Of a stretch of DNA of 64,000 nt, positions 1,970-49,591 are shown piece after piece (position 1 is the stretch's first letter; each line of letters begins with the position of its first letter). Location of the stretch: NCBI GenBank assembly GCA_021771915.1, contig JAETNY010000002.1, positions 1-64,000 of the forward strand, given 5' to 3'. Origin of the DNA: Bacillota bacterium. GTDB taxonomy: Bacteria > Bacillota > Dehalobacteriia > UBA4068 > UBA4997. The notes beneath the pieces are model-generated. The model was not told where the DNA came from. It worked only from the letters and a program-made list of their open reading frames with translations, and did not search any database. Both the position numbers and the translations under genes were made by a program.

Positions 1970-2365
1970 ATGCTACAAAAAAAATTTATCCAACAGGTTT
2001 CAGATTCTGAATTAACACTGCTGCAAATTATCTGGGCAGAAGGCGGCAAAGCGCTTTATGCTACAATTATGGAACAGCTGGCGGCAAACGGCAACAGCTG
2101 GCAAAAAAATACCGTTATCACTCTGCTTTCCCGACTTGTTGAAAAGGGTTTGCTGCAAACCAGTAAAATCGGCCGCCGCAACGAATACACCGCCATTGTA
2201 ACCGAAGCGGATTATCAGGCGGCGCAGGCGCAAACATTATTAAACAAACTTTATGCCGGCAATGCAAAGGGGCTGGTATCCACACTGATACAGCAGGAAA
2301 TGCTTTCTGCCAAAGATTATGAGGAGTTGCGAAAGTTCTGGGCGCAGGAGCGTGAATTGAAATGA
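1970..2365 (+). CDS. BlaI/MecI-family transcriptional repressor
   Basis: The 131-residue protein has the usual length and winged-helix start of the family (SDSELTLLQIIWAEGG, then NTVITLLSRLVEKGLL, about residues 11-70). Its helical C-terminal dimerisation part ends in LSAKDYEELRKFWAQ. Family members bind dyad operators as dimers and are inactivated by proteolysis when the partner M56 protease senses its ligand. AAGGAG lies 10 nt before the ATG. The stop overlaps the start of the M56 gene by 4 nt (ATGA), so the pair is co-translated. The operator 1906-1956 is the probable target. The inducing signal is not evident; I see no beta-lactamase nearby. Confidence 0.92.
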   Translation: MLQKKFIQQVSDSELTLLQIIWAEGGKALYATIMEQLAANGNSWQKNTVITLLSRLVEKGLLQTSKIGRRNEYTAIVTEADYQAAQAQTLLNKLYAGNAKGLVSTLIQQEMLSAKDYEELRKFWAQERELK

Positions 2366-4290
2366 ATGAAATTTTTAAAATCATCTTATCTCTTTCGCTT
2401 TCCGGTTCAATTTTGATTTTAATTTTGCTGCTTGGCAAACCATTTCTGCGCAAATATTTTAGCCAACGCTGGTATTATTACACCTGGCTAATAGTCATTG
2501 CCAGACTGCTACTGCCCTTTGCCCCGAAGAACAATCTGATAAACGCCTGCTTTAACCTCAAACAACCAAATGCCATCATGCCCTATATAGAAAATATTGA
2601 ACATTACCCATCCCCTATTCCAGCACTTAGTGGTAAGCTTTTAACTTCCACCACCGCAGTGCCACACCTAACCTCCAACCTGTTACTGCCCGATTTTCTG
2701 GCTTATCTCTGGTTAATTTGGCTTGGAATTGCTCTGTTGCTACTCATTTACAAAATAACTGCTTATCAAAACTTTGTTAAATATGTGCATGCCGGCCAAA
2801 GCCAGGTTAATGATGTACAAATTTTGGATAGATTGACCCAAATTGCCACCCAAAATGGTATCAAACGGCCTGTCGAATTAGCAATTAATCCCATGCTGGC
2901 CACACCGCTGCTTATTGGCCTGCGCAAACCAACTATTGTTATGCCGTCAATAAAGCAGACCGTCACCGACTTTGATTATACAGTCAAACATGAATTAATT
3001 CATTACAAACGGTATGATATAATTTATAAATGGTTATTACAGCTGACAGTTTGCCTGCACTGGTTTAATCCACTAATCTGGTTAATGCAAAAAGAAATAA
3101 ATCGGGCATGTGAATTGTCCTGTGACGAAGCGGTAATTTACCATTTGAATATTACCGAACGCCGCGCTTATGGCGACGCACTGCTGCATGCTATGGAATA
3201 TAGCGGAAATTGGCAAAATTCCACAGCCGCTATAAATTTTAATGATAACATCAAATTATTAAAAGAAAGGTTGAGAGCAATTATGCGTTTTAAGAAAAAA
3301 TCTCCTGTTATAACTGTTTTCTCTCTGTTGCTGACTGCATTATTTGTGATAGGAGCCACCACAGCAGGGGCTTACACAATAAAAGATTTTTATAACGACG
3401 ATTACGATTACGATTATAAAATAACCAAAGCGTATCTTGAACAAACATATACAGATAATAATGTTGCCCAATTTGCAGCAAATATCTATGGTATGACAGC
3501 TGAAAACCCACTCATTAATTATTTTGCAGAAAAGGCCTATAATGACGGTAAAACAAATTTCTTTTCTATCATTGCCCACAGCATGAACCAGAAACAGTTG
3601 GATAGTTGGCTGGAGCGTACTGCTAAGGACAAGACAAACAGTTTTCATGCCATACTACTGAAACTCAGCGGTCAGGAAACAGAATTGAATTCCTGGTTAG
3701 ATAAAATGGAACAGCAGCGTTTATCAGAATATGCAGAACTTGGCATTACACAACAAGATGGTCAATTCTATTATCAAGGGCAATTACTGCGTATTTTGCT
3801 GGATATACATACTAATGATTATTCCTGTGTTACTCTGCAAACCAATCCCAACGGTACATTGGCCATTAAAATCACGCGTGATGCGAACGAGAATATATTA
3901 AGTTTCGGTTATATGACAGAAACAGAGATAAACGAATTATTTGGCGATGATTTTGAAAAAGTTTCAACCGAACCGGCTGCTAAACCACTCTTCGACGTTC
4001 AAAATCTTACTTTCGATGAACTGCCTGATGATGTGCTTAAATTAATGGATAAATGCAGTATACGCGAATGGTATTTAATTCACGCTAATGGCCGACAATA
4101 TATCCGCTATAACGGTTTTGCCTGGAATTTTGCCTATCAGCCGATACAAACCACAGACGGCTGGCAGATTAATATTGTTAAGCTTAATAAAAAAGAATAT
4201 GGTAATCTTTTACTGTCCATGCCAGACGGCATGCCGCTGACAGTGTTTTGTGATGGACAAAAAGTGAATTTGGCAGAAATTTATGAATAA
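2362..4290 (+). CDS. M56-family (BlaR1/MecR1-like) membrane metalloprotease sensor
   Basis: The 642-residue protein begins with paired membrane helices (FKIILSLSLSGSILILILLL and the YYTWLIVIARLLLPF region). A cytoplasmic zinc protease domain follows, with HELIH (His210, Glu211, His214) and the downstream zinc-ligand motif NRACELSCDEAV (Glu251). Another helix at about residues 315-335 leads to an extracytoplasmic C-terminal domain of about 300 residues. In BlaR1 that domain is a penicillin-binding serine sensor; here I see no SxxK/SxN set, and the sequence looks unrelated, so the ligand is probably not a beta-lactam. Family members cleave the partner repressor upon signalling. It overlaps the repressor gene by 4 nt and the AraC gene by 8 nt. 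Confidence 0.88.
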   Translation: MNEIFKIILSLSLSGSILILILLLGKPFLRKYFSQRWYYYTWLIVIARLLLPFAPKNNLINACFNLKQPNAIMPYIENIEHYPSPIPALSGKLLTSTTAVPHLTSNLLLPDFLAYLWLIWLGIALLLLIYKITAYQNFVKYVHAGQSQVNDVQILDRLTQIATQNGIKRPVELAINPMLATPLLIGLRKPTIVMPSIKQTVTDFDYTVKHELIHYKRYDIIYKWLLQLTVCLHWFNPLIWLMQKEINRACELSCDEAVIYHLNITERRAYGDALLHAMEYSGNWQNSTAAINFNDNIKLLKERLRAIMRFKKKSPVITVFSLLLTALFVIGATTAGAYTIKDFYNDDYDYDYKITKAYLEQTYTDNNVAQFAANIYGMTAENPLINYFAEKAYNDGKTNFFSIIAHSMNQKQLDSWLERTAKDKTNSFHAILLKLSGQETELNSWLDKMEQQRLSEYAELGITQQDGQFYYQGQLLRILLDIHTNDYSCVTLQTNPNGTLAIKITRDANENILSFGYMTETEINELFGDDFEKVSTEPAAKPLFDVQNLTFDELPDDVLKLMDKCSIREWYLIHANGRQYIRYNGFAWNFAYQPIQTTDGWQINIVKLNKKEYGNLLLSMPDGMPLTVFCDGQKVNLAEIYE

Positions 4291-4912
4291 CATACAATAT
4301 TGGTACAATTCTGCTACCAGACAGGAAATAATTTTTTGCCATAATTCAACCATATCGTACCCATGGCATAATCATAGCTCTATTTTTACAATCGGCCTGC
4401 TGTTAGCCGGAACACTAAATCTGCAAATTGGCAAAACAAATATAACCTGCCTACCAGGATATATTTTCATCATTCCGCCTTATCTTCCTCACCGACTAAC
4501 AGCCAATCAACCATACACCATGCTTACCATTTGTCTGCCAAATACCCAAACGAACATTTTCAACGCCAATACCAACAAACTATGGTTTGAATTAACCGAA
4601 CAAATAAAAAAACAACCGGAACAAGCATTAAACCTTGATGAAATGGCTCAGACTGTATATCTCAGTAAATATCATTTTCTGCGTTGCTTTAAGCAAACAG
4701 TTGGTTTAACACCACACCAGTTTCAACTGCAAAACCGCGTGCGTAAAGCACAAAGAATGTTAAACCAGCATACCGGCATAACAGAAGTGGCTTTAGCCAC
4801 CGGTTTTTGTGACCAAAGCCATTTCATCAGGCAATTTAAAAAACATTTGGGTTTAACACCAAGCGCCTATCAGGCCGCATATCATCAGCTTTCTAGCTCT
4901 GCGCCGGCATAA
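4283..4912 (+). CDS. AraC-family transcriptional regulator
   Basis: The 209-residue protein has a short N-terminal cupin ligand-binding fold (WHNHSSIFTIGLLLAG through PGYIFIIPPYLPHRL, about residues 27-75). It has a C-terminal pair of AraC helix-turn-helices (about residues 110-205; MAQTVYLSKYHFLRCFKQTVG and ITEVALATGFCDQSHFIRQFK). Its start overlaps the end of the M56 gene by 8 nt, so it is the third gene of the repressor-sensor operon, an unusual partner for a BlaI/M56 pair. It converges with, and overlaps by 20 nt, the cupin gene on the other strand, which may be related functionally. The effector is unknown. Confidence 0.9.
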   Translation: MNNIQYWYNSATRQEIIFCHNSTISYPWHNHSSIFTIGLLLAGTLNLQIGKTNITCLPGYIFIIPPYLPHRLTANQPYTMLTICLPNTQTNIFNANTNKLWFELTEQIKKQPEQALNLDEMAQTVYLSKYHFLRCFKQTVGLTPHQFQLQNRVRKAQRMLNQHTGITEVALATGFCDQSHFIRQFKKHLGLTPSAYQAAYHQLSSSAPA

Positions 4913-6664: not shown

Positions 6665-9217
6665 TTAATACAAATTAAAGAGGATTTTAGCAATCTCGGC
6701 TCTGGTAATATTTGCCAGCGGTTTAATAGTGCCGTCCTCATAACCGCTAACAAGTCCCAATGTCACCAAACGCTCCACCGATTCTCTTGCCCAAACGCTG
6801 ATATCCTCAGCGTCAGCAAATTCCTGCGCTTCAACTGGATAGTTATTGGTTAAAATACGGCTAATAACCGCCATTGCCTCCTGTCGGCTTATATTGCTGC
6901 GCGAATAGAAATAAAGCTGCCCCTTAACATCTTGGCCGGCCATCACGCCAGCGTCATAAACCGCACAAATAGAACCTAACGCCCAAGACGGAATATCTTC
7001 CTTATCCTGATAAGGAAGGACAATATCCGTTGCCGTTGTATCCAGCTGTAAATACCGGGCAATAATCACAGCAAATTCTCCCCTGGTTAAATTTCGTGAA
7101 GGATTAAATAGCTGCTCGCCTGCTTTATTAGTCTCGCCCTGCATCAAACCTCGCTCACTCAAATAGGTTATATAGGAAGCTGCCCAATGCTTACCAGCCA
7201 CATCTACATATGCAGTAGTATCAGAAACTGCAACTTCACCAACCTGTAAGCTAACCGATTTACGTGCCAGTTTGCCATCATTATCAGCCGCCACCAACGT
7301 CATACGATGCAAACCGTCCGCTAAAGCGCTGATTTCAGCGCGCATAATACCCGTAGCTTCATCATATTCAAAATCAAGCTGGCTGCCGTCAACAGTAAAC
7401 CGTAATTGCTCCTTGGTCGGGAAATAAGAGCCCAAACCAGCCACCACGCGGAAACTGATATTAGAAGTTTCACCGCTGGCCAAAGTAGTCGGCACTGTTA
7501 CCGCCACAATATTTGGCCCGTCACCCTGCGTCAGCTGCGCCACCTGCACCACAGCCTGTGCCTGACCGCTACGCGCAATAATCTTACCGCTTTCCGCCTG
7601 ACCGCCGGCATGATAAAGCCCTTCCTGGTCAATCGTACCAATATCACCCTCCAGCTCCCATGTCACACTGTTATCAGAAATAGACACAGCCTCACCTTTA
7701 TATAAACCGCTGACTGATAAATCAATCTCCTCACCCGGTAAAACCAAAAGCTGATTAACGGCATTATCCCCCTGATAAATCTGCAATTCGCTTAAAGCAG
7801 ATAAAATGTATAAAAACTGGCTGCCGCTGGCACTGCCTGAAGTTGCCTGCAAAACCACGGCTCCAGTCTTGTCGCCGGCTGTAAAAATATTTTCATGCAC
7901 TGTTCCCATAGAATTGCTGACCTGCCATTCCAGCGGTTGATTATTTTGCGCTGTCTGCATAGCATTATCCAAAAGCGTAACCTCCAGCGGCACTGAAGCA
8001 CCAGCCAGCACATAACGAAACTGCGGTTTAATATTCAAATAGGTAACCTGACCATCGGAACGGGCATGATTTAGCAAAAAAATGTAATTGGCGCACGGAC
8101 GTAAACGACCATCAGACGGAGAATTAACCACCGCCAGTGGCTGTCCGCTCAAACGCACAGAAACGGCCGAGGAACCACCGCCATCTAGGTTTATAGCATT
8201 CTGCACACCCAAAGCCGCCATTTCCTGCGCCAACACTGCCGGCGTTAAGCCAACACTGTAACCGGATTGCCGACCATCATTTTCAAAGAAAATCATACTG
8301 CCGTCTGCTTTAAAACCAATTGCTGTGCGCGCCGAAGTGCCTGTCGGCGTATCGTCAACCGCCGGCTGTCCATTCAAAAGCAACGATTTGCCGCCCACAG
8401 CGTAAACAACCTCCTGCCAAGCTGAATCGCTTACAGTTATACTAAATACAACCTCGTCACCAATATTAAAAACGCCTACTTTAGTAGCATCACCAGTAGC
8501 AGCAATAGTTAAAAGCATTTGATTAGCGGCAAGTGCGGTAGACTGGGCCGTTTCCACAACATCAACCACACGCATGCGTATTGAACAACCCAGATACGGG
8601 TCTTCAGTATCAAGCTTTTCCAGCAACACATTTGTTCCCATACTGTCTATACGCGTCTGTTCACCCCAGTTATGGTCATAAAGATTAACAGTATAAGATG
8701 AACGGGTTTTATTAAAATTTTCTACCTGCACACTATGGCCAGCGCCTTGCAGCAGCATAGTCAGCTGGGGTTTACCAAAAACAGCTGTGCCGTCGGCTCT
8801 AAAGCCCACGGCGTATGCTCCCCCGGCGGAGGTAATCAAAGTGCTGTCTTTAATTACAATGCCAATCGGGATACCAGTGCTGACATTAAAGAAATCTGCA
8901 TTAAAACCAGCCAGTGGGTCAGCTGACAAATCCGTCTGCAAATATTCCATCACATGGTTAATAGTAGATTTGCCATAAAAACCACGCCCATAAGCCACCA
9001 CTGGCAAAACATTTTCATTAGGTGTATACTCAATATAATGCTGTTTTTGCAGGCCCAGTTCATTTTCACCAGCTACATCATAATACTTTAAGCCAGCGCC
9101 AATATCATATACCTGCGGATAGGCTGCGGTAAGTGCATAAGCCGGAGAAACAACCGTTAAACAGGCAACTAACAGCAATGCAAAACTCCAGCCAAACAAC
9201 TTACACCATCTAAACAT
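6665..9217 (-). CDS. Exported phosphodiester glycosidase (NAGPA-type) with three SLH repeats
   Basis: The 850-residue protein starts with a signal peptide (SFALLLVACLTVVSPAYA). The region to about residue 385 is the NAGPA/DUF2233 fold, with NADFFNVSTGIPIGIVI and the hallmark NLDGGGSSA; this family removes N-acetylglucosamine from phosphodiesters. Beta-sandwich, Ig-like segments follow (about 390-660). Three S-layer homology repeats end the protein (about 670-730, 735-793 and 799-850; each has an LTRGEFAV-, ISRQEAMA- or ITRAEIAK-type core). SLH repeats bind secondary wall polymer, or the outer-membrane-linked wall in Negativicutes, so the enzyme is held at the cell surface. It lies 23 nt downstream of the next surface-protein gene. 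The substrate is inferred only. Confidence 0.85.
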   Translation of the reverse strand: MFRWCKLFGWSFALLLVACLTVVSPAYALTAAYPQVYDIGAGLKYYDVAGENELGLQKQHYIEYTPNENVLPVVAYGRGFYGKSTINHVMEYLQTDLSADPLAGFNADFFNVSTGIPIGIVIKDSTLITSAGGAYAVGFRADGTAVFGKPQLTMLLQGAGHSVQVENFNKTRSSYTVNLYDHNWGEQTRIDSMGTNVLLEKLDTEDPYLGCSIRMRVVDVVETAQSTALAANQMLLTIAATGDATKVGVFNIGDEVVFSITVSDSAWQEVVYAVGGKSLLLNGQPAVDDTPTGTSARTAIGFKADGSMIFFENDGRQSGYSVGLTPAVLAQEMAALGVQNAINLDGGGSSAVSVRLSGQPLAVVNSPSDGRLRPCANYIFLLNHARSDGQVTYLNIKPQFRYVLAGASVPLEVTLLDNAMQTAQNNQPLEWQVSNSMGTVHENIFTAGDKTGAVVLQATSGSASGSQFLYILSALSELQIYQGDNAVNQLLVLPGEEIDLSVSGLYKGEAVSISDNSVTWELEGDIGTIDQEGLYHAGGQAESGKIIARSGQAQAVVQVAQLTQGDGPNIVAVTVPTTLASGETSNISFRVVAGLGSYFPTKEQLRFTVDGSQLDFEYDEATGIMRAEISALADGLHRMTLVAADNDGKLARKSVSLQVGEVAVSDTTAYVDVAGKHWAASYITYLSERGLMQGETNKAGEQLFNPSRNLTRGEFAVIIARYLQLDTTATDIVLPYQDKEDIPSWALGSICAVYDAGVMAGQDVKGQLYFYSRSNISRQEAMAVISRILTNNYPVEAQEFADAEDISVWARESVERLVTLGLVSGYEDGTIKPLANITRAEIAKILFNLY

Positions 9218-44918: not shown

Positions 44919-44954
44919 AAAAAAATACCAGGGCTTATCAAGCAAAGCCCTGGT
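44919..44954 (-). terminator. Terminator after the M56-M23 gene
   Basis: Perfect 10-base arms (44927-44936 and 44945-44954) enclose an 8-base loop and are followed on the minus strand by ATTTTTTT. They lie 6 nt past the stop codon at 44960. Confidence 0.88.
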
Positions 44955-44959
44955 GTATA

Positions 44960-47401
44960 TTATTTCTGTTCAAAAAAACTCATTGGGTCAAGCGGCTGGC
45001 CATTCTGCAAAATAGAAAGGTGCAGGTGCGCACCGGTGCTTTTACCGGTTGAGCCAACATAGCCGATGACCTGACCGGCTTCTACCACATTCCCAGCCTT
45101 AACTGCAATGCTGGATAAATGAGAGTAACGCGTTTCCCAGGTGCCATCGTCAGAATGTTGCAAAATAATTTTATTGCCGTCTTCTCCCATATAATCAGCA
45201 GCCAGAACCTTACCGGACGACACCGCATAAACCGGCGCACCTGTCACGGCCGGAATATCAATGCCGCTATGTTGACGTTCACCACCAAAACTGGCGCTAA
45301 TAATATGATACTTGTCATCAAGCGGCCATTGCCAATGCTGCTCTGTGTTCTTACTCAAAGTATCAGCATCCATACTGCTACTGCTGCGCAAACCGCTAAT
45401 CAGCCATTTGCCATCTTTTTGCTGCTCCACCTCCAGCGTCACGGCCAGTTCGCTGTAACCGCTTTGACCGTCCGGCCGTATTATCAGCACATGCAAATTA
45501 AGGCTGTTTGGCTCTGCCGCCCACTGCTCCGCATAGACGGCTCTCGCCTGACCCAGCATAACATCAGCATATTGCCAGCCAACGCTTTCCAAAACATATT
45601 TTGTACAGAAACTTTGCATTTTTTGGTAATCACTTTGCTGCCAGGCCTGAGCAAACTGTGTTACCACCGCAAACCGTTCCGGCAGGAATAAAGCCGTATT
45701 TACCATTTTACTTTCACCAAGCAAGGGCAGGCTGACCATACGCAGAACCTCGCCGCCATTTTGGTCATACTGCAAAATCATCAATCCGTCCAGCATGCTG
45801 CTGCCTTCAACTGCGGACATCTGCGCAATCCCCAGCAACATTTCCGCCGGCACATAAATAACATCATTATACATTTGCGCGCCAACCAGATTATCAGTCA
45901 TATTGAATTGACGCTGGTAGAAGCAATGCAAAACCCTACCGCCGGCTGCATCCGTCTGCCACTGATAAAGCTCCAGTTTAACCAGCCCATTATCATATTG
46001 CAAACTGCTGTTATCATTCGGCTCGATTATCTGAAATCTTTCTAGCATCTCACGCAGAGGCAGATAAATTTTGCCATCAGGCGTTAAATACGGCTTATTA
46101 TTAAAATTAATCGCCTCGCCATTATTGTAAACCACAATACCATTAACATTAGTATATAAAGAAACTTCATCAACACGCTTCACAGTATCGTTATCAGATG
46201 TAACGCTCCACACAACTCCATTATCAACCGTTTTAGCCGATGCGACCAACTCCAGATTGGTCGCTTGAGCTGCAGCAAAAGCACTGCCACCCAAAGCCAG
46301 CATTACCAACATGGTGCTGCAAAATACTGCCAGCCCTCGCTGCCAATAACGGCTGTTTATTTTATGTTTATTAATCATTTCAAACCTCCTTTTAATTTTT
46401 CTCTTATCACCACTCATACCTGTATGCAAACCACCCACCAACGCCGTCGGCGTTAACATGCGCAGGATTGTCCGCATATAATCACAGCGTTCATTTTCAG
46501 TCATATCGCTTGTTACTGCCAAATCACAGGAAATTTCACAATCCTGCTCAAGATGAAAACTCAGTAGATAAACCAACGGGTTAAACCAATGCAGACACTG
46601 CGCAAACAGCAACAGCCACTTATATTGCACATCATGCCGCTGATAATGCGTCAACTCATGCCGCAGCAAATTCTGCCAATCTGTTGAGCTTAATTCCAAT
46701 GCTATAGCCGGCGCTGGCAACAACAGACAAGGCCGACGCAAACCACTCACAAAAGGAGCAGTCAGCATTGATTTTTCGTCTGCCACCTTAAGCTGCCGCA
46801 GCTGCAACTTTGGCGCCAAATTCTGCCAATATACCGCTTCAGAAGCGGCAAACGGCAAATCAGACCAGGACACTATCACACTGCTTTTAAGCATATGTTG
46901 ACGAAAAACGCCATAAATCAGCAAACGACCGACCAGCAGCAACATCGCGCCAATTAACCATACCAGCGCCCAGAACTGCCAGTCTATGAACGGCATAAAC
47001 TGCTGACCAAGATGACGCACAGACTCGGCTATGGATAATTGTGCCGGTGCGGCCGTAATTTTCGAATCTGGCACGCTTTTAAACTGCCCTGACCGACCCT
47101 GCCAATCTACATACCCCGGCACACTTTCCGGCAGTAATAATTCCGTTTCCGGCTGAGGCGAGTTAAAACCACTTAAAAGATTGATTTTTCCGGCAAAATC
47201 GGCAAAAATCTCACCAGACACATTTACAGGCAGGAAAAAAAGCGGCAACAACAGCACCAATAGCACCGGCAAGCAGCTATAATACTGCCATTTTGCGCCA
47301 AACATGCGACCAGTTATGGGACGCAACACACACAGCAACAAAATCAACAAAGCGCCCCAGACCGAAACGGCCAGACAATAAAGAAAAATTTGTGTCAGCA
47401 T
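44960..47401 (-). CDS. M56 sensor protease fused to a copper-amine-oxidase-like stalk and M23 peptidase
   Basis: In the 813-residue protein, paired helices precede a BlaR1-like zinc protease domain with RHELTHYQRHD (His248, Glu249, His252) and EQDCEISCDLAV (Glu289). A further helix (about 360-380) leads outside. There follow a copper-amine-oxidase-like region (about 410-560; GKIYLPLREMLERF, DVIYVPAEMLL) and an NTF2-like segment. An M23/LytM domain with HSGID (His711, Asp715) and GAHLHLS (His792, His794) ends the protein, so both metal sites look intact. I use the ATG at 47401 (GAGGG 7 nt upstream); the longer frame reads into the repressor gene. The usual penicillin sensor is absent. It is encoded 10 nt after its repressor gene. 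Confidence 0.88.
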   Translation of the reverse strand: MLTQIFLYCLAVSVWGALLILLLCVLRPITGRMFGAKWQYYSCLPVLLVLLLPLFFLPVNVSGEIFADFAGKINLLSGFNSPQPETELLLPESVPGYVDWQGRSGQFKSVPDSKITAAPAQLSIAESVRHLGQQFMPFIDWQFWALVWLIGAMLLLVGRLLIYGVFRQHMLKSSVIVSWSDLPFAASEAVYWQNLAPKLQLRQLKVADEKSMLTAPFVSGLRRPCLLLPAPAIALELSSTDWQNLLRHELTHYQRHDVQYKWLLLFAQCLHWFNPLVYLLSFHLEQDCEISCDLAVTSDMTENERCDYMRTILRMLTPTALVGGLHTGMSGDKRKIKRRFEMINKHKINSRYWQRGLAVFCSTMLVMLALGGSAFAAAQATNLELVASAKTVDNGVVWSVTSDNDTVKRVDEVSLYTNVNGIVVYNNGEAINFNNKPYLTPDGKIYLPLREMLERFQIIEPNDNSSLQYDNGLVKLELYQWQTDAAGGRVLHCFYQRQFNMTDNLVGAQMYNDVIYVPAEMLLGIAQMSAVEGSSMLDGLMILQYDQNGGEVLRMVSLPLLGESKMVNTALFLPERFAVVTQFAQAWQQSDYQKMQSFCTKYVLESVGWQYADVMLGQARAVYAEQWAAEPNSLNLHVLIIRPDGQSGYSELAVTLEVEQQKDGKWLISGLRSSSSMDADTLSKNTEQHWQWPLDDKYHIISASFGGERQHSGIDIPAVTGAPVYAVSSGKVLAADYMGEDGNKIILQHSDDGTWETRYSHLSSIAVKAGNVVEAGQVIGYVGSTGKSTGAHLHLSILQNGQPLDPMSFFEQK

Positions 47402-47411
47402 AACAATACCC

Positions 47412-47810
47412 TCACAACTTAAACAACTCTCGCAATTCATCAATATCCTGCGCGGAAAGGCGGCGACTGGCCACCAGAGAGGCCGCCAGACTGCGCACGG
47501 AGCCATGATACAGCGTATCCAGCAAATCGTTGGCGGCACTTTGCCGGTATTGTTCCTCATCAATTTGCGCCTGATAAAGATAGCCGTTGCCGCTAGCGGC
47601 CTTTTGCCGCTGCACCGCCCCCTTTTCCTCCAGCCGCGCCAGCATGGTTGCCAGCGTGGTGCGCTGCCACTGCTTTTCCGGCAGAGCCTGATTAATCTCT
47701 CTGGCTGAAAACCCCTGCGAAGCACCTCTATCGGTATTTTGCCAGAGCACTTGCATAATAGCCAGTTCTGCCTTTGTCAGGCTAATCTTTTTCTCACTTT
47801 TACTATTCAT
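47412..47810 (-). CDS. BlaI/MecI-family transcriptional repressor (second copy)
   Basis: The 132-residue winged-helix protein has LTKAELAIMQVLWQNTDRG, then TTLATMLARLEEKGAVQRQK, and a helical tail. It is the partner of the M56-M23 protein encoded directly downstream. GAGGTAAG precedes the ATG. Its own promoter is embedded in a paired operator (47858-47906), so self-repression is expected. Confidence 0.93.
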   Translation of the reverse strand: MNSKSEKKISLTKAELAIMQVLWQNTDRGASQGFSAREINQALPEKQWQRTTLATMLARLEEKGAVQRQKAASGNGYLYQAQIDEEQYRQSAANDLLDTLYHGSVRSLAASLVASRRLSAQDIDELRELFKL

Positions 47811-47843
47811 TTTCTTACCTCTGTACCTTACTTAAGTAATCTT

Positions 47844-47855
47844 TGACACGTGTCA
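47844..47855. repeat. 12-base perfect palindrome in the repressor leader
   Basis: TGACACGTGTCA lies between the promoter and the start of the second blaI-like gene. It may be an extra regulator site; no partner is evident. Confidence 0.35.
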
Positions 47856-47857
47856 TC

Positions 47858-47906
47858 ATTGCGTCTACATTTATAGACACTTATATTCTACACTTGTAGA
47901 CGCAAT
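47858..47906. promoter_or_regulatory. BlaI/MecI-type double operator
   Basis: Twelve-base inverted arms (47858-47869 and 47895-47906, ATTGCGTCTACA type) frame the element. Each is also part of a smaller dyad (GTCTACATTTATAGAC on the left, CTACACTTGTAG on the right) of the TACA-n-TGTA class. The element covers the spacer and -10 of the promoter 47885-47913. Confidence 0.7.
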
Positions 47907-47913
47907 TTGTCAA
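47885..47913 (-). promoter_or_regulatory. Promoter of the second blaI-M56 unit
   Basis: On the minus strand, TTGACA (47908-47913), 17 bases and TAGAAT (47885-47890), overlapping the operator. Confidence 0.72.
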
Positions 47914-47923
47914 GCCCTTTCTC

Positions 47924-47976
47924 AAAAAAAAAAACAGTGCATCACCGTTCATTAAAAAAAACGGCAATGCACTGTT
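47924..47976 (-). terminator. Terminator after the crotonase gene
   Basis: A two-part stem (47934-47942 with 47967-47975, and 47945-47949 with 47960-47964) is followed on the minus strand by eleven T. It isolates the purine-side operon from the repressor promoter. Confidence 0.85.
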
Positions 47977-48002
47977 CCAATATGTGTAAAGAACCACAAT
48001 TT

Positions 48003-48817: not shown

Positions 48818-49591
48818 TTAATAAAGCTTACCCTGATTTTTTTGATATTTATTAAAAACCTGCTGACATTCAGTCCGGTTCAATTCCTGCATAGTTACAG
48901 GCAACGTGCCGCAGCCGGCAAAAAAATCATAAATATTTTCATCACGAAAACCAATAGCCGATGCGTCCGCTCTGGTACAGCCATAAACCACCCGTTCAAT
49001 GTTCGCCCAGATAATAGCGGCCAGACACATCGGACAAGGTTCACAGGAGGTATAAAGTGTGCAACCCTGCAAATCATGGTTGTCAATTTTAGCGCAGGCC
49101 GCCCGAATTGCCATAATCTCCGCATGTGCTGTGGGGTCTTTGCTCAACAAAACCTGATTATGCTCCGCAGCCAGAACCTGGCCGTCAGCCGAAGCCACAA
49201 CTGCGCCAAAAGGGCCGCCCTCGCCAGCATCACTACCCTGCTCTGCCTGCTGCAAAGCCAAAGCCAGCATTTCCTTATCCCACGGCAATGCTTTATGCAT
49301 ATTTTTCTCCTCCTCTGCCCACAAACGAGGGCAGGCCTCAGCCAAAGTTATTTGTCCACTGGCCAAACGTCTTTTTTTATTAGTTTTCAGCTGTTTAATC
49401 AATACTTCTGCACGCCGAGCCAAACGTGTTTCCGGCAATTCAGCCGCCCAAAGCAGGCGTACCGGTAAACGCTGCTTGGTATATTTGGCACCACGCCCGG
49501 CATTATGCACGGCCAAACGCCGTCGCAGATTTACAGTATAGCCAGCATACATAGTATTATCAGCGCATTGCAATATATATACAAAAGCCAT
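48818..49591 (-). CDS. GIY-YIG nuclease-like domain fused in frame to guanine deaminase
   Basis: The 257-codon frame has two parts. Residues 1-97 are a UPF0213-type GIY-YIG domain ([41 protein letters not shown]). Residues 98-257 are a CMP/dCMP-type deaminase closest to GuaD ([52 protein letters not shown]), which converts guanine to xanthine. There is no stop between them, but AGGAGG lies 8 nt before the ATG at 49300, so the deaminase (48818-49300, 160 residues, normal family length) may also be made alone. The frame starts 3 nt after purD, so it belongs to the purine operon. Confidence 0.85.

Follow-up and report, generated by a model that had tools for sequence, protein, structure and literature searches.

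A BlaI-Controlled M56–M23 Fusion Protein as a Candidate Self-Regulating Wall Hydrolase in a Bacillota Bacterium

Introduction

What does a BlaI-type repressor control, and what may its partner protease sense, when the outside part of that protease carries a peptidoglycan hydrolase of family M23? This question is raised by a locus in the window, the whole stretch of 64,000 nucleotides that was analyzed here. To our knowledge, the signals for most M56/BlaI pairs are not known. In the BlaR1/BlaI family, the M56 protease is switched on by a signal from outside, cleavage of BlaI follows and the promoter is freed; BlaR1 itself is also cut during signalling (PMC7593790). M56 has been listed among the rare M23 architectures, in which the combinations with other catalytic domains together make up less than 1% of the hits, and in the same review a role of M56 in peptidoglycan cleavage is described as not shown (PMC9662197). 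That review, which assigns the pairing no function, was the only source found in searches of the literature for the function of M56-M23 proteins.

Results

One Chain Carries Intact M56 and M23 Sites

The fusion gene is one uninterrupted open frame of 813 amino acids, with its ATG at 47401, and the fused state was likewise found in the G005 ortholog, which confirms the single 813-residue chain of the original prediction. Both catalytic sites claimed for it were also present in full. Peptidase_M56 (PF05569) matched with 144.1 bits (cut-off 31), and the HExxH motif with its downstream Glu places the protein in peptidase family M56; His248, Glu249, His252 and Glu289 are invariant across an alignment of 50 M56 proteins. 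Peptidase_M23 (PF01551) matched with 104.3 bits (cut-off 28.7), and the HxxxD and HxH motifs (His711, Asp715, His792 and His794, with no metal ligand replaced), together with the further histidine H761, are those of a LytM-type M23 peptidase. On these grounds we infer that the M23 domain would act as a peptidoglycan cross-link endopeptidase.

Four hydrophobic segments were detected by hydropathy (residues ~1-32, 38-67, 142-167 and 356-378), followed by a C-terminal domain that this profile puts outside, as in family M56. The topology of BlaR1 supports an arrangement in which M56 would lie inside and M23 outside. The PF07833-like stalk that had been proposed between them was seen in all four orthologs, but its scores of 15–20 bits (17.0 in the window protein) are below the gathering cut-off of 24.2. 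No Pfam match was obtained for the linker domain that follows, and its best relevant PDB match was a "predicted ester cyclase" (E = 1.9); the NTF2-like label given to it originally thus finds no significant support. An AlphaFold model of the ectodomain, for which the input was the window protein and L006 only, reached a pLDDT of 31.5 and a pTM of 0.22, values too low for the model to be used.

The BlaR1 model of NCBIfam gave 105.6 bits against a cut-off of 400, the M56 part alone being matched, and a direct comparison of this part with BlaR1 (8exp) gave a weak match (E 8e-4). No transpeptidase or penicillin-binding (class-D-like) sensor was matched in the fusion by Pfam. Judged by its sequence, the fusion is not a BlaR1 at the sensor domain. 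The features of the locus are collected in Table 1.

Table 1. Positions of the features of the fusion operon and its surroundings (window coordinates unless a locus is named).
Feature	Position	Strand	Basis or remark
M56-stalk-M23 fusion gene, stop codon included	44960..47401	-	Open frame and Pfam; intact ortholog in G005
M56 domain with TM3, residues 141-345 (H248, E249, H252, E289)	46367..46981	-	PF05569
TM4, residues 356-378, then AFA-AA stretch	46268..46336	-	Hydropathy
Copper-amine-oxidase-N1-like stalk, residues 409-560	45722..46177	-	Sub-threshold PF07833 in all four orthologs
Linker domain, residues 561-690 ("NTF2-like" in the original prediction)	45332..45721	-	71-80% identity among orthologs
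M23 peptidase domain, residues 710-806 (H711, D715, H761, H792, H794)	44984..45274	-	PF01551, ligands checked
Low-conservation stretch, M56 half of fusion	46071..47330	-	DNA identity to G005
blaI-family repressor gene, 132 aa	47412..47810	-	PF03965 (Penicillinase_R), 97.2 bits, cut-off 22.6
Sigma-70-type promoter, TTGACA-17-TAGAAT	47885..47913	-	11/12 consensus matches
Operator I, perfect palindrome TCTACAAGTGTAGA	47887..47900	-	Kept in G005, G006, G007
Operator II, TCTATAAATGTAGA, 23 bp downstream of operator I	47864..47877	-	Pattern search
Terminator-like hairpin between fusion gene and sigK	44927..44954	-	Sequence
Terminator-like hairpin upstream of operon	47931..47978	-	Sequence
S41-peptidase gene	L064 473-1774 (G007); L068 8007-9323 (G006)		First gene of the orthologous operon

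The Predicted Operator Is Private to the Fusion Operon

A repressor gene 10 nt upstream of the fusion gene and a promoter buried in a double TACA/TGTA operator had both been predicted, and both were found. The blaI gene ends at this distance (Penicillinase_R, 97 bits), and its product falls outside staphylococcal BlaI/MecI by the NCBIfam cut-offs. The two operators, of the TCTACA/TGTAGA type, straddle the promoter: operator I takes up the greater part of the spacer and runs into the -10, with operator II just downstream. The observed count of matches to the operator pattern was reached in 0 of 100 shuffles of the window, and the pair is present with identical spacing in three other genomes of the same genus (G005, G006 and G007). 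These sequences support a BlaI repressor that would bind the TACA-NN-TGTA operator at its own promoter.

The genome-wide scan for further operator targets, which had been suggested originally, covered all 2.3 Mb of the genome. A single copy of the core CTACANNTGTAG was found, at the fusion operon, and every remaining site that departs from the 14-mer operator by at most one mismatch is situated in a coding frame; judged by the translations, one of these frames resembles fliF and another site falls in a region that resembles mobilisation genes. A regulon beyond the fusion operon was rejected because of this position of the near matches, within a scan that reached one mismatch and that more degenerate sites may have escaped. 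By sequence, the operator would thus serve the fusion operon alone, and the circuit most likely acts on its own operon. Read-through from the fusion gene into the neighbouring gene was also rejected, as a terminator-like hairpin intervenes. Sigma-70 domain matches were obtained in this neighbour, which is presumably sigK, a name taken from those matches and from reading of the sequence.

Elsewhere the genome has three more M56 genes, which likewise come with BlaI-like genes; their promoter repeats are different, for example CCTACA...TGTTA. A second BlaI-M56 pair (1970-2365 and 2362-4290) is located in the window at 1970-4912 on the forward strand, and its M56 gene overlaps a gene for an AraC-type regulator (4283-4912); the promoter repeat of this pair, CCTACAATATGTTATC...GATAACATATTGTAGG, is unlike the fusion operator. 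In G006, another BlaI-M56 operon, which has no M23 (contig C1, L048 1627-1671), carries CTACANNTGTAG twice, at a distance of about 29 bp, so two BlaI proteins of G006 may share operators.

Orthologous Loci Differ in the M23 Domain and in Operon Content

In the window, G006 and G007 the operon has sigK on one side and a gene for enoyl-CoA hydratase on the other; in G005, where the fusion is intact, it adjoins sigK. A frameshift or assembly join that might have created the fusion, the refutation foreseen at the outset, was ruled out by this intact ortholog at the same locus in a genome of the same genus. Purifying selection on the ectodomain also makes it unlikely: its segments gave dN/dS values of 0.16–0.26 between the window and G007.

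The comparison of the orthologs rests on draft assemblies. The G007 ortholog is split at contig ends with its M23 domain intact; the break between its contigs, C57 and C79, omits just the M56 half, as if this half were variable among the sampled strains. In G006, M56 and the stalk are kept, and a deletion with a frameshift has removed about 60 residues, among them the counterparts of H711 and D715, and with these half of M23. All of the M23 residues are kept in the window, G005, G007 and G002.

Between the operator and blaI, G006 and G007 carry a gene for an S41 peptidase with a lipoprotein-like signal, which is not present in the window genome or in G005. It is thus the first gene of the operon in two of the four orthologous operons, one of them (G006) having the broken M23, and ten related genomes yielded no further homolog of the S41 gene. 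The operons of the window genome and G005 have no product besides BlaI and the fusion. The full ectodomain stalk was found in only 4 of the 43 genomes searched in the class, all of one genus, and no record of a plasmid-borne horizontal copy of the fusion reached 80% coverage. Nearby in the window (48818-49591, reverse strand), a frame of 257 amino acids joins a GIY-YIG nuclease to a cytidine/guanine-deaminase-type domain, and it stays a single frame in G006 and G007.

Conservation Is Uneven Along the Gene

Protein identity between the window and G005 was 79.5% for BlaI, 43.7% for the M56 core, 26% for the TM4 region, 67.8% for the stalk, 74.4% for the linker domain, 72.7% for M23 and 91% for SigK. 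Hence the M56 part is only ~40% identical between subclades, with BlaI and the ectodomain (68–74%) conserved. At the DNA level, identity to G005 between 47330 and 46071 was mostly 36–62%, with one 90-nt block at 69%, and the flanks were mostly at 70–80%. The two halves of the gene are about equally diverged between G005 and G006 (74% and 79%), so the drop in M56 arose between the subclades. A single clade (support 100/99) still unites the M56 domains from the window, G005 and G006. Replacement of the module by another of the sampled paralogs was rejected on this basis, and the drop is read either as rapid divergence or as the result of exchange with a close relative outside the sample, two readings that look alike at this distance because synonymous sites are saturated.

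The M56-M23 Pairing Appears More Than Once

Fifty M56 proteins were sampled from the class, from a spread of the phylum and from one plasmid. The original prediction had contrasted the fusion with BlaR1/MecR1 proteins, which normally carry a penicillin-binding sensor; for the relatives sampled this contrast does not hold, a transpeptidase or PBP family match having been found by Pfam in 0 of 50. M23 was present in 5 of the 50, and the other ectodomains were very varied (DUF4825, BNR repeats, NAGPA, DUF4309 and LRR). A phosphodiester glycosidase of the NAGPA type, the ectodomain of one of the surveyed proteins, is also encoded in the window at 6665-9217 (reverse strand), where it is joined to S-layer homology domains.

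The M23-bearing M56 proteins do not form one clade (AU p 0.00057), and the tree shows four changes of the M23 label, two of them forced by well-supported branches. On this tree, therefore, the M56-M23 pairing arose repeatedly. A BlaI-family gene was found beside each of the M23-bearing M56 proteins that were checked. The M23 site is intact in the G002 fusion; in the G033 fusion the initial His, the Asp and the HxH motif of M23 are gone. Plasmid OY725877.1 of Subdoligranulum variabile (L069 1831-5183), a record that carries no annotation, encodes BlaI and an M56-M23 protein whose frame is probably broken; directly behind them comes a coiled-coil M23 gene of its own, which was counted in favour of a hydrolase circuit.

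The Negativicutes setting suggested beforehand is not supported, the nearest named record being a MAG of an uncultured Peptococcaceae. A Negativicutes or diderm host was rejected in the absence of Omp85/BamA from the genome, and the host is probably not a Negativicute.

Discussion

The architecture, the topology, the intact catalytic sites and the control by BlaI and its operator are supported by the sequences described above, and they are best accommodated by a closed circuit in which a wall hydrolase regulates its own synthesis and the wall probably feeds back on it, a reading to which we give a probability of roughly one half. In this circuit, BlaI dimers on the paired operator would repress a single promoter driving only the fusion operon. 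The second protein would be a four-TM M56 protease of the BlaR1 type whose outside part is a stalked M23 peptidoglycan endopeptidase. An event at the wall, either binding or cutting of the substrate or a stress on the wall that the stalk and M23 register, would be passed via TM4 to the M56 site, and the activated M56 would cleave BlaI. Derepression of the operon would then raise the amount of the M23 protein, and of S41 in the operons that have it; as the promoter appears to drive only this operon, the M23 protein is the product expected to rise. The hydrolase would be the circuit's output and would probably contribute to its input as well, with no separate resistance gene under control. That M23 cuts the wall, which signal is received and that M23 takes part in sensing are steps that we infer. 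A more specific version, in which engagement of M23 with peptidoglycan switches the attached M56 and destroys the repressor of the operon, so that one protein would measure, perform and dose its own hydrolysis, is put forward tentatively. Two interpretations had been offered originally, a wall sensor and a hydrolase controlling its own synthesis. The latter fits better, given that the genome holds no second copy of the operator and that here and in G005 the operon has no other product; wall sensing stands as a conjecture.

The locus shares with BlaR1/MecR1-BlaI/MecI a repressor gene adjoining that of an M56 protease, which has four TM segments and its C-terminal domain outside, and an operator of the TACA-NN-TGTA type at the promoter. 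It differs from them in its ectodomain, a stalk and M23 in place of a penicillin-binding sensor, and in the private operator, no beta-lactamase or PBP target having been found. As in the M56 and M23 entry of the M23 review, both catalytic domains are in one chain; unlike the present locus, that entry comes without repressor, operator, locus or function (PMC9662197). The M23 fold and all of its metal and catalytic residues are those of LytM-type endopeptidases (3slu, 6muk, 2gu1, lysostaphin and LytM), but here the domain is joined to a regulatory membrane protease, not free or lipid-anchored. The amount of hydrolase would be tuned to the cross-link state of the wall, as in the WalRK control of CwlO and LytE in Bacillus subtilis, which by contrast uses a two-component kinase and separate hydrolases, with no M56 or BlaI (PMC7299342).

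Other explanations of the same protein have to be weighed. M23 might serve purely as a wall sensor, binding peptidoglycan as a ligand module with its catalysis incidental and the effect coming from elsewhere, for example from S41. The degenerate domain of G033 points this way, and so does G006, which keeps M56 and the stalk without a full M23 and has S41 in its operon; together they indicate that catalysis by M23 is dispensable in some of the fusions. Degenerate LytM domains in EnvC and SpoIIQ bind peptidoglycan as ligand modules. This explanation is nevertheless unlikely, because the window protein and those of G005, G007 and G002 keep every M23 residue, and because neither a further product of the operon nor a further target of the operator is seen in G005 or the window genome.

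The ectodomain could also have been shuffled onto M56 without any coupling, M23 being one of many exported domains gained by M56 proteins. The locus does change fast, as seen in the M56 divergence between subclades, the S41 gene in two of four operons and the one broken M23; M56 ectodomains are in general very diverse, and this one was found in four genomes only, all from a single genus. Such shuffling, which we consider improbable, is at odds with the purifying selection on the ectodomain, the conserved private operator and the repeated independent joining of M56 to M23. Least probable is a shed hydrolase, with TM4 acting like a signal peptide, or S41 or another protease cutting the chain, and M56 regulating the dose only. 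It would be in keeping with the basic residues before TM4 and the AFA-AA after it, with S41 in half of the operons and with the cutting of BlaR1 during signalling (PMC7593790); however, the small-residue stretch after TM4 is also found in other M56 proteins, and S41 is absent from this genome. The autoregulated hydrolase circuit is therefore preferred.

The domain pair was already on record in databases but is uncharacterised; what is new here is its private operator and its repeated origin. None of the 50 sampled M56 proteins has the textbook penicillin sensor of BlaR1. At the present locus, as is seldom so, the sequence itself reveals what the circuit probably puts out: with the operator private, the circuit would control its own ectodomain enzyme. 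If it is true that M23 sets the signal, the fusion would provide a one-protein route to wall-hydrolase homeostasis.
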